A DNA stretch of 64,000 bases. It comes from Streptomyces albogriseolus. GTDB lineage: Bacteria > Actinomycetota > Actinomycetes > Streptomycetales > Streptomycetaceae. Both the position numbers and the translations under genes were made by a program. The stretch is from the NCBI GenBank assembly GCA_014650475.1, contig BMVA01000010.1, positions 163,394-227,393 of the forward strand, given 5' to 3'. The notes below the pieces were generated by a model. The model was not told the origin of the DNA and did no database searches. It was given only the letters and a program-made list of their open reading frames with translations. This document shows positions 8,078-15,094 of the stretch, in pieces. How positions within the stretch are numbered: position 1 is the first letter of the stretch; every line of letters starts with the position of its first letter.

Positions 8078-10666
8078 ATGACGACTTCCGCGACGTCCGG
8101 AACCGGCGGCCCGACCGAGAACTCCCTGCGCCGCGCGCTCAGGCGCGCCCGCGACGGCGTCTCCCTGGACGTCTCCGAGGCCGCGGTCCTGCTCCAGGCC
8201 CGCGGTGAGCATCTGACGGACCTCTCCGCCTCGGCCGCCCGGGTCCGCGACGCGGGCCTGGAGGCGGCGGGGCGGCCCGGCGTCATCACGTACTCCAAGA
8301 GCGTGTTCGTTCCACTGACACGGCTGTGCCGGGACACGTGCCACTACTGCACGTTCGTCACCGTGCCCGGCAAGCTGCGCCGCGCCGGGCACGGGATGTT
8401 CATGTCGCCGGACGAGGTGCTGGACATCGCCCGCAAGGGCGCCGCGCTCGGCTGCAAGGAAGCCCTCATCACCCTCGGCGACAAGCCCGAGGACCGCTGG
8501 CCCGAGGCCCGCGAGTGGCTCGACGCGCACGGCTACGACGACACGATCGCCTACGTCCGCGCCATCTCGATCCGCATCCTGGAGGAGACGGGACTCCTCC
8601 CGCACCTCAACCCCGGCGTCCTGACCTGGACGGACTTCCAGCGTCTGAAGCCGGTCGCCCCGTCCATGGGCATGATGCTGGAGACCACCGCGACCCGCCT
8701 GTGGTCCGAGCCCGGCGGCCCCCACCACGGCTCCCCGGACAAGGAACCGGCGGTGCGGCTGAGGGTCCTCGAGGACGCGGGCCGCTCCTCGGTCCCCTTC
8801 ACCTCCGGCATCCTCATCGGCATCGGCGAGACGTACGAGGAGCGCGCGGAGTCGTTGTTCGCCCTGCGGAAGATCTCCCGCGCCCACCACGGCATCCAGG
8901 AACTGATCATCCAGAACTTCCGCGCCAAGCCGGACACCGCCATGCGCGGCATGCCGGACGCGGAGCTGGACGAACTGGTCGCCACGGTCGCCGTCGCCCG
9001 CCTCGTCCTCGGCCCCGCCGCCTGCCTCCAGGCCCCGCCGAACCTGGTCGACGCCGAGTACGGGCGGCTGATCGCGGCCGGCATCGACGACTGGGGCGGC
9101 GTCTCCCCGCTCACCATCGACCACGTCAACCCCGAGCGGCCCTGGCCGCAGATCGAGGAACTGGCCGAGCAGTCCCGCGCGGCCGGCTTCGACCTGCGCG
9201 AACGCCTCTGCGTCTACCCGGAGTTCGTGCGGCGCGGCGAGCCCTGGCTGGACCCGCGGCTGCGCCCGCACGTCGCCGCGCTCGCCGACCCGGCCACCGG
9301 CCTCGCCCTCCCGGACGCGCTGCCCAAGGGGCTGCCCTGGCAGGAGCCGGACGAGGCGTTCACCGCCACCGGCCGCACCGATCTGCACCGCACCATCGAC
9401 ACCGAGGGCCGCACCGGCGACCGCCGCGAGGACTTCGACGAGGTGTACGGCGACTGGGACGCCCTGCGCGAGGCCGCCGCGCCCGGCATGGTCCCCGAGC
9501 GGATCGACACCGACGTGCGCGAGGCGCTGCGCACGGCCGCCGACGACCCGACGAAGCTCACCGACGCCGAGGCGCTGGCCCTGCTGCACGCAGACGGTCC
9601 CGCCCTGGACGCGCTGTGCCGGGTCGCGGACGACGTGCGCAAGTCGGCGGTCGGCGACGACGTGACGTACATCGTCACGCGCAACATCAACTTCACCAAC
9701 GTCTGTTACACCGGCTGCCGCTTCTGCGCCTTCGCCCAGCGCCGCACCGACGCCGACGCGTACACGCTGTCGCTGGAGCAGGTCGCCGACCGCGCCCAGC
9801 AGGCGTGGGACGTCGGCGCGGTGGAGGTCTGCATGCAGGGCGGCATCCACCCGGACCTGCCCGGCACCGCCTACTTCGACATCGCGCGGGCCGTGAAGGA
9901 ACGCGTCCCCGGGATGCACGTCCACGCCTTCTCCCCGATGGAGGTGGTCAACGGCGCGACGCGTACGGGCCTGTCCATCCGCGAGTGGCTGACCGCCGCC
10001 AAGGAAGCCGGCCTGGACACCATCCCGGGCACGGCCGCCGAGATCCTCGACGACGAGGTCCGCTGGATCCTCACCAAGGGCAAGCTGCCGGCGGCGACCT
10101 GGATCGAGGTCGTCGAGACGGCCCACGACCTGGGCATCCGCTCCTCGTCCACGATGATGTACGGCCATGTCGACCAGCCGCGCCACTGGCTCGGCCACCT
10201 GCGGACCCTGGCCGGCGTCCAGCAGCGGACCGGCGGCTTCACCGAGTTCGTGACGCTGCCCTTCGTGCACACCAACGCCCCCGTCTACCTGGCCGGCATC
10301 GCCCGCCCGGGCCCGACCGTCCGTGACAACCGCGCGGTCACGGCGATGGCCCGCCTGCTGCTCCACCCCTGGATCCCCCACATCCAGACGAGCTGGGTCA
10401 AACTGGGCGCGGAGGGCGCGGCGGAGATGCTGCGCTCCGGCGCGAACGACCTCGGCGGGACGCTGATGGAGGAGACCATCTCCCGTATGGCGGGCTCCTC
10501 CTACGGCTCCTACAAGTCGGTCAAGGACCTGATCGCGGTGGCGGAGGCGGCCGGCCGCCCGGCGAAGCCGCGCACGACCCTGTACGGCGAGGTCCCCGAG
10601 GAGCGCCGCCGCGCGGCGGAGGCCTCGGACGGCCATCTGCCGGAGCTGCTGCCGGTCCTCGACTGA
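8078..10666 (+). CDS. fbiC: FbiC, F420 chromophore (FO) synthase, CofG-CofH fusion
   Basis: 862 residues, the usual length of actinobacterial FbiC. It contains two radical-SAM domains. The N-terminal CofG half carries the Fe-S motif CRDTCHYC near residue 84, and the C-terminal CofH half carries CYTGCRFC near residue 543. The enzyme joins tyrosine and a 5-amino-6-ribitylamino-uracil to make FO, the 7,8-didemethyl-8-hydroxy-5-deazariboflavin core of F420. All six cluster Cys are present. No Shine-Dalgarno precedes the ATG. Flanking genes at 5055 and 7193 encode likely F420 users. Confidence 0.95.
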
Positions 10667-11304: not shown

Positions 11305-11321
11305 CCGGGAAAGGCATACAC

Positions 11322-13841
11322 ATGGCGCGCGGGCGGGTTTCGCTCCAGGAGCTGGTGCGGCGGCGGACGCGTGCCGGGCTCGTCGCGCGCAGTGCCGAAC
11401 GGGAGCTGTTCCGGGGCAACTTCGACACCGCACCCGAGGACGGACGGCACCGCTTCCTGTTCCATGTGCACGGCACCGCGGGCGTCGGAAAGACACGCCT
11501 GGTCAAGGAGTTCGAGCATCTCGCCCGCGAACAGGGCGCGTTGACGGCGTACGTCAACGAGACCTCCGGCTCCGTCCCCGAGGCGCTGGAAGCGGTGTGC
11601 CGTCAGTTCGCCTTACGGGGGCACCGGTTGAAGGACCTGGAGCGGATGCTCGCGACGCACCGCGAGCGCCGCCACGAGGCGGAGACCGCCGCCCTCGCCG
11701 CCCTCGACCCCGCCCCGGACGGCGCCCCCTCCACGGGCGGCATGGCGCTCGCCCGCGCCGGACTCGCCGGACTCGGACTCGTCCCCGGCGTCGCCCCGTT
11801 CACGGCCGTCCTCGACCCCGCGCAGCTCGCCCACGGAGCCGACCGGCTGCGCTCGGTCCTCGCCGCCCGCTTCCGCAGCCACGAGGACGTCCGCCTGGTC
11901 CTCGACCCGGCGAGCGTCCTCACCCCCGTCCTCACCGACGAACTGAACGCGGTCGCCTCCGACGTCCCCTGGATCGTCCTCCTCCTCGACACCTACGAGC
12001 GCACCGGCCCCTTCCTCGACGCCTGGCTGCACGACCTGCTCACCACCGACCGCTACGGAGCCCTGCCCGACACGGTCGTCGTCGTCACCGCGGGACAGCA
12101 CCCCGCCGACCCGGCCCGCTGGGGCACGTTCGCCGACTTCATGACCTCCCTGCCGCTCCAGCCCTTCACCGAGGCGGAAGCACGCGGACTGCTCGCCGAA
12201 CGGGGCGTCACCGCCGAACCCGTCGTCGCCGAGGCGCTCCGCCTCACCGGCGGCCTCCCGGTGCTGCTCTCCACGATTGCCGGCACCCGCCCCGCAGGAC
12301 CCGAGGACGTCACCGACCCCAGCGCCACCGCCGTCGAACGTTTCCTGAAGTGGGAACAGGACCCCGGCCGCCGGTTCGCCGCCCTCGCGGGCGCGCTGCC
12401 CCGGCTGCTGGACGCGGACGTCTTCGCGGTCGCCGCCGACTGCGACCGCGACCGCGCCGAGGAGCTCTACGCCTGGGTGGAGACCCTGCCGTTCGCCGAC
12501 CGGCTCGGCGGCCGGATGCGCTACCACGACATCGTGCGCGCCCCCATGCTGCGGCTCCAGCGCGGCCGCTCCCCGCGCGGCTGGGCCGACGGCCACGACA
12601 GGCTCGCACAGGCCTTCCGCCGGTGGCGCGAACAGACGGAGAACGGCCGGGACACCGGCACGCTGTGGCTCGACGAGACCTGGTGCGAGCTGCGGCTCGG
12701 GGAGCTGTACCACCGTCTGTGCGCCGCCGGCCCCACGGCGGTCTCCGACACCCTGCGGGACCTGGTGGAGGCGTGCGACCAGGGGGAGGCGCTCGCCGCC
12801 CGCTGGGTCCGGGTGCTGGAGGACGCGGGGCGGGACGCGGGCGCGCCGGGCGTGAGCGCCTGGGGCGACCGGCTGTCGGCCGCGCTCGCCTCCGGCGGGA
12901 CGCGGGCGGTTCTCGACACCCTGCTGGACTGGGCGGGGCACACCCCGCTTCCCGTCCCGGGCCGGCTGCCCGTCCGGCGCGGCGGCGACGAGCCGTCGAC
13001 CACACCCGGCGGCGGCGTGCCGGCCGGCCCCCCCGACTTCCCCGGCGACCCCGTGGGGGCCGACCCCATGCTGTGGGACCTCGACCTGGCCGGGGCGCCG
13101 GCGGACGTCGACTGGATGTCACAGGAGCAGGCCCGCCTGACGACTCCCGCGGACGTCGCCCTCCCCGCCCCCCTCCTCGCCCGCATCCACCGCGACCGCG
13201 CCCTCGCGCACGCCGCGCGGGGGGACCACACCTCCGCCGTCACCGAACTGAGCGGGGCCCTCGCCCTCACCCCCGACGACGCCCGCACGCTCGCCCTGCG
13301 CGGCGAGTACCTGCGGGCCCTCGGCCTCCACGCGGAGGCCGTCGCCGACCTGGAGCAGGCCACCGCCCTCGACCCCGCCGACGCCTACGCCTGGGCCTCC
13401 CTCGGCGCCGCCCGCCTCACCCTCGGCCACCCGGAGGGAGCCCGTACCGCCCTGGACCACGCCCTCGCCCTGAGGCCCGACTACACCTGGGCGCTGGTCC
13501 GCCGCGCCCGGGTGGCCCGGGAGCTGGGCGACCCGGAGGGCCGCCTCGCCGCCCTCGACCGCGCCGTCGCCGCCGAACCCGACTCCGCGTGGGCGCACTG
13601 CGAACGCGGGGACGCCCTCCGCGCCGCCGACCGCGACCGGGAGGCCCTGGCCGCCTACGACCGGGCCCTCGCCCTCGACCCCGGGTACGCGTCGGCGTAC
13701 GCGAGCCGGGGCGTGGCCCATCACCGCCTGGGCCAACTCGACGAGGCCCTCGCCGACCTGGACCGCGCCCTGGAGCTGAACCCGTCGTACGCCTGGGCGC
13801 GCGAGCGGCGCGATGCGGTCGTACAGCACCGCGACGGCTGA
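11322..13841 (+). CDS. STAND-like P-loop ATPase with C-terminal TPR array
   Basis: 839 residues. A Walker A motif GTAGVGKT lies near residue 50, and a Walker B-like strand (WIVLLLDTYERTG) near residue 225. A helical region follows, and at least six TPR units run from ~620 to the end (A..LDPADAYAWASLG, A.DLDRALELNP and similar). The layout, AAA/STAND switch plus TPR sensor, suits a signal-transducing or scaffold ATPase. No effector domain such as TIR, nuclease or transmembrane segment is visible. It lies between the transpeptidase-like gene and an inactive-looking ADP-ribosylglycohydrolase. Specific role unknown. Confidence 0.75.
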   Translation: MARGRVSLQELVRRRTRAGLVARSAERELFRGNFDTAPEDGRHRFLFHVHGTAGVGKTRLVKEFEHLAREQGALTAYVNETSGSVPEALEAVCRQFALRGHRLKDLERMLATHRERRHEAETAALAALDPAPDGAPSTGGMALARAGLAGLGLVPGVAPFTAVLDPAQLAHGADRLRSVLAARFRSHEDVRLVLDPASVLTPVLTDELNAVASDVPWIVLLLDTYERTGPFLDAWLHDLLTTDRYGALPDTVVVVTAGQHPADPARWGTFADFMTSLPLQPFTEAEARGLLAERGVTAEPVVAEALRLTGGLPVLLSTIAGTRPAGPEDVTDPSATAVERFLKWEQDPGRRFAALAGALPRLLDADVFAVAADCDRDRAEELYAWVETLPFADRLGGRMRYHDIVRAPMLRLQRGRSPRGWADGHDRLAQAFRRWREQTENGRDTGTLWLDETWCELRLGELYHRLCAAGPTAVSDTLRDLVEACDQGEALAARWVRVLEDAGRDAGAPGVSAWGDRLSAALASGGTRAVLDTLLDWAGHTPLPVPGRLPVRRGGDEPSTTPGGGVPAGPPDFPGDPVGADPMLWDLDLAGAPADVDWMSQEQARLTTPADVALPAPLLARIHRDRALAHAARGDHTSAVTELSGALALTPDDARTLALRGEYLRALGLHAEAVADLEQATALDPADAYAWASLGAARLTLGHPEGARTALDHALALRPDYTWALVRRARVARELGDPEGRLAALDRAVAAEPDSAWAHCERGDALRAADRDREALAAYDRALALDPGYASAYASRGVAHHRLGQLDEALADLDRALELNPSYAWARERRDAVVQHRDG

Positions 13842-13975
13842 AACCGGGCGACTCCCGACCGTTCGGATCGCACTCCGCACAGCGAACCGGAGGGCGATCC
13901 GGCCTCGCAGCCGACCGTCCCCGTTCGATTACAGTGCAGGGCGTCGTACATGCGGACGGTCCCGGGGAGGTCTTG

Positions 13976-15094
13976 GTGGCTGGTACTGCCGGGCCCGTGT
14001 GGGGGCGCCGTGAGCAGCAGGATTTCCGCAGCCGGGTGCGCGGAACGCTGCTCGGGGTGGCCGTGGGCGACGCGCTGGGCGCGCCCGTGGACGGCCTGGA
14101 CGTCGACGCCATCCGCCGGACCCACGGCGCGGAGGGCCTGACCGACCTCGCCCCCGCCTACGGCCGGCGCGGCGCCGTCACCCACCACACCCAGCTCACC
14201 CTCTTCACCGTGGACGGCCTGATCCGCGCCCAGGTGCGGCGCGACACCGGCGCGTGGCACCCGCCGACTGACCTGCACCGGGCGTATCTGCGCTGGGCCA
14301 CCACGCAGCGCGACTGGGGCCCGGACGAGCGGCGCAAGGAGGACGGCTGGCTGGCCCGGGAGGAGTGGCTGTACGCCCGCCGCGACCCGGCCCGCCCTCT
14401 GCTCCTCGGCCTGGGCGACGCGACGATGGGCACGCTGGACGCGCCCAAGAACCCCGGCGAGGCCGGCCCGGAGGCGGCGGCCCGGTCGGCGCCGTTCGGG
14501 CTGCTGGTCGGCTGGGACCCGCAGCTGGTGGCGCAGCTCGCCGTGGAGTGCGCGGCGCAGACCCACGGCCACCCGGTCGCCTTCCTCGCGGCGGGCGCGT
14601 ACGCGGTGCTGGTGCACGCGCTGGCCCGGGGCGACAGCCTGGACACGGCGGTGCAGCGCACCCTCGCCCTGCTGGCCGCCCGGCCCGGCCACCAGCCGGT
14701 GACGGACGCCCTCCAGCGCGCCCTGGGCGCGGTACGGCAGGGGATGCCCGGCGCGGAGCGCGTCACGGAACTGGTCGGCGCCGCCACCGCCGAGGGCCTG
14801 CTGTCCGCCGCCGTGTACTGCGCGCTGGTGGGGGAGGACGTACGGCACGGGCTGTGTCTCGCCGTGAACCACAGCGGCCCCAGCGCCGCGGCCGGCGCGC
14901 TGACCGGCGGCCTGCTGGGCGCCCTGCACGGCGAGACGGCCCTCCCGCCGGCCTGGCTGGCCGAACTGGAGGGCCGTCCCACGGTCCTGGAACTGGCCGA
15001 CGACTTCGCGATGGAAATGACCCAGGGCCCCGCCCTCCACACCCCCGCCTCCGCGTCCCCGGCCTGGCTGACCCGCTACCCAAGAGGCGCCTAG
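13976..15094 (+). CDS. ADP-ribosylglycohydrolase homologue lacking metal-binding residues
   Basis: 372 residues from a GTG placed 5 nt after GGGGAGG. The fold is clear along the whole length: RVRGTLLGVAVGDALGAPV, RSAPFGLLVGW, ECAAQTHGHP, LADDFAMEMTQ. Active ARH/DraG enzymes bind Mg through T-D-D-T near residue 69 and G-D-S-D near residue 300. Here these read THHTQ and SGPSAAAG. A third conserved G-C-G-T-V-M-R segment reads GPEAAAR (~164). All Asp metal ligands are therefore missing while the scaffold is kept, so it is probably a pseudoenzyme that binds rather than cleaves ADP-ribose or a partner. It begins 134 bp after the TPR-ATPase. Confidence 0.85.
   Translation: MAGTAGPVWGRREQQDFRSRVRGTLLGVAVGDALGAPVDGLDVDAIRRTHGAEGLTDLAPAYGRRGAVTHHTQLTLFTVDGLIRAQVRRDTGAWHPPTDLHRAYLRWATTQRDWGPDERRKEDGWLAREEWLYARRDPARPLLLGLGDATMGTLDAPKNPGEAGPEAAARSAPFGLLVGWDPQLVAQLAVECAAQTHGHPVAFLAAGAYAVLVHALARGDSLDTAVQRTLALLAARPGHQPVTDALQRALGAVRQGMPGAERVTELVGAATAEGLLSAAVYCALVGEDVRHGLCLAVNHSGPSAAAGALTGGLLGALHGETALPPAWLAELEGRPTVLELADDFAMEMTQGPALHTPASASPAWLTRYPRGA

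Follow-up and report, generated by a model that had tools for sequence, protein, structure and literature searches.

The 64,000-nucleotide stretch of Streptomyces albogriseolus DNA analysed here (the window) carries a gene for a protein with the fold of the ADP-ribosylglycohydrolase (ARH)/DraG family that has lost its catalytic residues (Table 1). The GTG start at 13976 aligns with the ATG of an orthologue (L112), and the stop codon ends at 15094. PF03747 is the single domain of the product (P0001), which the profile search matches over positions 1-286 of 287 with 198.6 bits (cut-off 26.2). The predicted structure is the all-helical ARH fold, the same predicted fold as in the DraG/ARH family, in agreement with the sequence-only reading of this gene, in which the fold was considered preserved from end to end. 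The DraG equivalog model TIGR02662 gives 68.3 bits, below the 337.05 required.

Table 1. Features of the pseudoenzyme gene and its surroundings (positions in the window), and motifs of the three younger losses.
Feature	Position	Strand	Remarks
Two-domain radical S-adenosylmethionine (SAM)/CofH_C protein	8078..10666	+	conserved upstream neighbour
Conserved upstream element TCGATTACAGTGC, 13 bp	13925..13937	+	about 40 bp before the start
ARH/DraG-fold pseudoenzyme gene	13976..15094	+	372 aa and stop, GTG start
N-terminal segment WGRREQQDFRSRVRG, residues 9-23	14000..14044	+	kept in active and dead proteins; mean entropy 0.20 bits in dead rows
Asp39 for the Glu-flap glutamate	14090..14092	+	alignment with intact orthologues; DraG has Glu there
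THHT (T69-H70-H71-T72) for metal-binding TDDT	14180..14191	+	alignment with orthologues
Segments RAQVRRDTGAWHPPTD and RWATTQRDWGPDERRKEDGWLAREEWLYARR, within residues 84-136	14225..14383	+	kept in active and dead proteins; mean entropy 0.12 and 0.37 bits
EAGPEAAAR (residues 162-170) for the SKGCG(T/A)VMR ligand loop	14459..14485	+	alignment with orthologues
SGPSAAAG (S300-G307) for metal-binding (S/G)GDSDSTG	14873..14896	+	alignment with orthologues
C-terminal tail ELADDFAMEMTQGPALH...WLTRYPR, residues 339-370	14990..15085	+	kept in active and dead proteins
Younger loss 1: G086 and G263			TDAT, GGGAVMR
Younger loss 2: G047 and G105, with G184 beside them on the ARH tree			TDDT or TDGT, DPGAVVR
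Younger loss 3: G198 and G288			TDDT or TDET, DCGAVMR or GHGALVR

The four aspartates of TDDT and GDSDS, which we take to form the binuclear metal site, are all absent, with H70, H71, P302 and A304 in their places. The ligand loop SKGCG-VMR is replaced as well: GPEAAAR (G164-R170, 14465-14485) stands for GCG(T/A)VMR and is preceded by E162-A163 where intact orthologues carry Ser-Lys. The glutamate of the Glu flap is an aspartate (D39). In the alignment with DraG, all four changed sites fall on its counterparts. The replacements THHT, GPEAAAR and SGPSAAAG and the loss of every metal aspartate had been read from the DNA beforehand, exactly in sequence and coordinates; the changes at Asp39 and E162-A163 come in addition to that list. 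Chance or a misread frame is ruled out by the exact sequence, the full-length profile match and the motifs of the orthologues. The Glu flap corresponds to Glu41 in human ARH3 and to Glu28 in R. rubrum DraG, where its mutation had a minor effect (PMC7050489); the assignment of the metal pair, the flap and the ligand to these positions follows that source and, in part, general background on the family.

Orthologues were collected from 295 genomes of the genus, 291 with matches at E ≤ 1e-30, and from 101 genomes of 17 genera of the family, where E ≤ 1e-20 was reached in 96 genomes and 16 genera; the genera g3 and g15 are matched at paralogue level only. A closer look was taken at 21 genomes with weak matches or none, of which 17 belong to the window's genus; four genomes of the genus had no match (G035, G050, G051 and G272). 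Only paralogue-level matches were found in G139, G219 and G258, a fragment together with such a match in G017, and a gene in pieces in G008, G062, G112 and G224. Two of the latter hold dead-gene orthologues in adjoining pieces (L073/L082 in G062, L074/L085 in G224), by decay or by sequence error, and some matches contain an in-frame stop. From 243 extracted loci, 236 are full-length (7 fragments dropped) and, after the removal of 13 paralogue rows, 223 orthologues remain.

Judged by the four aspartates alone, these 223 orthologues divide into active (all four, 56), intermediate (two or three, 6) and dead (none or one, 161). When the glutamate is counted as a fifth catalytic acid, the set is intact in 55/223 and lost in 168/223; L187, active by its four aspartates in most counts and trees, is then scored as lost. 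All 15 orthologues from 13 other genera are intact, as are 40 of the 208 from the window's genus. A further 77 genomes of the genus (about 80-85% identical) stand outside these counts, and G056 outside the trees; the 77 are probably dead, and the share of 168/208 for the genus is likely low. Among 80 named loci, which are the closest of 487 relatives and not a random sample (all Streptomyces, 79.7-92.5% identical), none of the four aspartates is left in 75 and one in 5. They include S. griseoflavus, S. viridochromogenes, S. tricolor, S. olivaceoviridis and S. antibioticus. The losses are thus common to orthologues across species, and decay specific to one species is ruled out. The sequence-only reading had also stated that orthologues with the usual aspartates would refute it. 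Taken literally, such orthologues exist (the 55 intact ones); they belong to other genera and lineages and point to an ancestral enzyme, and the observation itself stands.

The loss is focused on the motifs, as had been proposed. The motif spans were set from the known motifs (residue 39, 69-72, 162-170 and 301-307). Among the columns that reach at least 95% conservation in 55 active rows, 13 of 19 inside the spans drop under 50% in the 161 dead rows, compared with 15 of 168 elsewhere (Fisher 1.7e-8). Position 39 is glutamate in 55/55 intact orthologues and in 4/161 dead ones, and the dead proteins have lost 7 of 8 conserved residues in the SKGCGxVMR loop. The 13 lost columns, picked as lost, show many different replacements (mean entropy 1.72 bits in dead rows); over all 21 motif-span columns the mean is 1.18 bits vs 0.72 elsewhere.

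The trees place a single loss at the base of a large Streptomyces clade. An ARH tree computed with the motif columns removed unites the 161 dead rows in a single clade (Shimodaira-Hasegawa-like approximate likelihood ratio test, SH-aLRT, 86). The 60 genomes of an rpoB-rpoC (rpoBC) DNA tree were selected to represent the range of motif types; here too the dead genomes, 39 in number, group in a single clade (SH-aLRT 99), and one change is needed. When intact is compared with lost, 4 changes are required on the rpoBC tree and 3 on the ARH tree, which sets the L187/L191 pair beside the dead clade. Three younger lineages lost the site separately from the large clade. Their members retain 2-4 aspartates and the glutamate is absent in 7/7 rows; L187 keeps four aspartates, L179 and L217 three, yet all lack it. 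The glutamate may go first in the loss of the site, as far as these seven rows suggest. Replacement of the gene by a paralogue or by transfer is not supported, with the locus, the gene tree and the rpoBC tree concurring on one dead clade.

The remainder of the protein is conserved over that clade. The frames are open in 161 dead rows, 99 columns hold the same residue at ≥97% in both the active and the dead group and, of 187 columns conserved in active rows, 140 are kept at ≥90% in dead rows. The median ratio of nonsynonymous to synonymous rates (dN/dS; Nei-Gojobori method, NG86, dS 0.1-0.7) is 0.299 in dead proteins (8394 pairs) and 0.252 in active ones (1300 pairs, L187 counted active). The dead proteins are, on these figures, under purifying selection that is somewhat relaxed: the catalytic residues are lost and the protein is conserved over a clade, as in a pseudoenzyme under selection. 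The open frame and the selection can be read from the DNA, the fold is predicted and the protein is presumably expressed. Part of the conservation distinguishes the orthogroup. Against three paralogues and three more distant homologues, the kept stretches that set it apart are WGRxEQQDFRSRVRG, RRDTGAWHPPTD, TQRDWGPDERRKxDGWLAREEWLY and the C-tail EMTQGPALH...WLxRYPR. The N-terminal WGRREQQDFRSRVRG differs in part in the aligned paralogues, whereas RAQVRRDTGAWHPPTD and RWATTQRDWGPDERRKEDGWLAREEWLYARR are largely specific to the orthogroup and are a candidate binding surface.

The upstream element is conserved too. Taken as 12 bases with ≤1 mismatch within 350 bp upstream, it is found in 132/160 dead, 5/6 intermediate and 21/55 active loci, and in 71/80 named loci at ≤1 mismatch; within 2 mismatches it accompanies 155/167 lost vs 29/54 intact rows. 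In the control, 221 windows inside genes, the closest is at least 4 mismatches away. At ≤1 mismatch TCGATTACAGTGC is single-copy in the 8.07-Mb assembly, which shows only that no gene set shares it. Its TACAGT would, we assume, fit a TANNNT-type -10, and a scan with the sigma-70 consensus detected no promoter; a single-gene promoter or operator is possible. The element suggests that a unit of expression outlasted catalysis. On the rpoBC tree the comparison comes down to 4 independent pairs (on average 2 agree and 2 are without difference; median p 0.5), with 8 changes of the site. With 4 such pairs only, neither an association nor an order between catalytic loss and upstream element can be claimed.

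Further upstream, the radical SAM/CofH_C protein appears to be fbiC, the FO synthase; across much of the family, fbiC precedes the ARH gene. Where both genes are measurable on one strand, a gap below 400 bp is seen in 29/42 active, 19/75 dead, 0/5 intermediate and 0/52 named dead loci, a difference between active and dead that is confounded with descent. Another 27 dead and 22 named loci, each with 1.5 kb or more of upstream sequence, showed no fbiC end within reach. Among the loci L047-L071 and L092-L251, the spacing is 12-260 bp in those 29 active ones, and the pair often looks operon-like in active lineages; in dead loci other genes often lie between. The linkage hints at a tie to F420 metabolism in the ancestor. 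Over 17 kb around 59 named loci the neighbours are a symporter (54), a carboxypeptidase (50), fbiC (45), a membrane protein (45), a small upstream protein (44), an oxidoreductase (23) and a protein with an AAA domain and tetratricopeptide repeats (TPR) (20). The latter lies directly upstream in the window (11319-13841) and, being near the gene in only 20/59 named loci, is a variable neighbour.

The window protein is probably a pseudoenzyme retained for a non-catalytic binding or scaffold job, descended from an enzyme that already carried the binding function. The ancestral state would be an fbiC-linked ADP-ribosylglycohydrolase, enzymatically competent by its catalytic set. A second, binding function would already have been present in this enzyme, through the orthogroup-specific surfaces, which have changed very little (residues 9-23, parts of 84-136 and the C-tail). 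The binuclear metal site, the Glu flap and most of the ADP-ribose loop were lost once, in the ancestor of the large Streptomyces clade, as the trees show, and the present role would be only that of a binding or scaffold protein for a putative partner. The separate losses elsewhere would mean that activity had become dispensable and binding had not. The pattern of an old enzyme, catalytic loss, conservation elsewhere and losses in side lineages fits a binding role that outlived the enzymatic one. The earlier suggestion of selection for a non-catalytic role is supported: many species keep the protein whole and conserved although its active site is gone. A wider version, in which conversion from enzyme to scaffold was repeated at one locus, comes close to an even call and falls slightly on the doubtful side; the ancestor would have gained both the binding role and its own upstream element, and catalysis would have been lost four times afterwards (one old and three younger losses).

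Several observations weigh against retention for binding. The fbiC linkage is looser in the dead loci, and the gene neighbours in the 59 named loci over 17 kb indicate no partner. The NG86 ratios are a simple count in DNA of >70% G+C. Relative to rpoBC the dead proteins change faster (median ratio 3.63 vs 2.14 in active ones), and some constraint is therefore lost. The confidence of the predicted model (predicted local distance difference test, pLDDT) is below 50 at residues 112-130 and 352-372, overlapping part of the proposed binding surface. In a first fbiC tree the dead rows did not group together, and 5 changes (active vs not) or 4 (dead vs not) were required; of the 157 rows with at least 330 aa, this tree used the 94 that also had an entry in the table of motif states (57 dead, 36 active, 1 intermediate). 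With the odd dead row L111 omitted, the better tree in the clade test unites the dead rows (log-likelihood 16 higher), and a single clade is not rejected. Six motif columns are kept in the dead proteins (T69, T72, R170, G301, S303 and T306), and some use of the old pocket may persist. On sequence grounds, residual activity without the metal site may also exist.

Those six residues and the predicted fold are what would be expected if the dead protein still bound ADP-ribose, free or on modified targets, and served as a non-cutting reader or protector. A reader should keep its pocket, though, and with all four metal aspartates and 7/8 conserved ligand-loop residues gone, and the lost columns varying as widely as described, this is unlikely. 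Of the two roles offered by the sequence-only reading, protein binding is the better fit and ADP-ribose binding the less likely one, because most of the ligand loop and the metals are gone and the lost positions drift. Regulation of an active ARH paralogue in the same cell, by hetero-oligomer formation or competition for targets, is fairly unlikely. The genome does hold seven PF03747 loci besides this gene, and TDDT is kept in all five that entered the alignment (two of the seven are outside it), but none of the seven is on the window's contig and the kept segments are largely unlike the aligned paralogues. Four PF03747 genes of this genome stand side by side in 4.6 kb (L003, L006, L007 and L008; G000:C2:105248-109833); the row resembles, and would match, the SCO2028-SCO2031 set named in PMC9411070.

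The faster evolution of the dead clade, the adjoining pieces in G062 and G224 and the in-frame stops would also suit a gene that is no longer needed and decays under relaxed selection without yet being a pseudogene. This is quite improbable: dN/dS across the clade is near 0.3, 99 sites hardly vary, 161 rows from a deep clade have open frames, and the upstream element is conserved as well; relaxed decay alone leaves the constraint unexplained. A rebuilding of the site for another chemistry, for instance with metal-binding histidines in THHT, is highly improbable. That motif occurs in 12/161 dead rows, the window's among them, but in most dead orthologues one or both middle places of TDDT are taken by Ala, Leu or Val, the third motif is without ligands and no new set of residues has become fixed.

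Related systems are known inside the family. The DraG/ARH proteins (PF03747; R. rubrum DraG 2woc, human ARH3) share the whole-length profile match and the predicted fold with the window protein, and its orthologues in 13 other genera carry the full catalytic set; the window protein differs in lacking the four metal aspartates and the Glu flap, together with most of the ligand loop. Vertebrate ADPRHL1 (ARH2) is a paralogue of ARH1. It is a cardiac ARH pseudoenzyme, likewise kept without catalytic residues, with a developmental role according to PMC10601310, PMC4990356 and PMC7390403. ADPRHL1 is a vertebrate protein, whereas the active and dead versions described here are orthologues at one bacterial locus. 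The ARH fold also occurs in the chains 8xks_Q and 8xqw_G (Orf2971/Ycf2-FtsHi motor complexes) and 9hny_FP and 6sga_FP (mitoribosome small-subunit assemblies), from eukaryote organelle complexes (organism named for 8xqw and 6sga, presumed for the others). By the titles of their PDB entries, these chains are a precedent for structural ARH folds; a literature search on the FtsHi and mitoribosome ARH-like chains gave nothing useful. Among the matches listed, no bacterial pseudo-ARH was found in the open-access literature.

In S. coelicolor, eight DraG/ARH homologues are counted in PMC9411070, and SCO4435 is placed among the DraG-like putative or uncharacterised ADP-ribosyl hydrolases (PMC5087735, PMC9411070). 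SCO4435 is probably the counterpart of the window gene, because the eight homologues match the number of PF03747 loci in the window's genome. We take fbiC to be SCO4429, close in number to SCO4435. SCO4435 would then be dead itself and, if so, its listing as a hydrolase would be doubtful. In another paper the ARH-like protein assayed was SCO5809.

Pseudo-ARH proteins were previously known from vertebrates; here a large Streptomyces branch carries a dead one, and lists of hydrolases would have to be read differently. Because one locus offers orthologues that are intact, half-lost or dead, the order in which a pseudoenzyme is born can be tested. If the conversion was indeed repeated, related species with dead and intact versions would be a natural experiment on pseudoenzyme origin, and part of the reported Streptomyces 'hydrolases' would be structural proteins.
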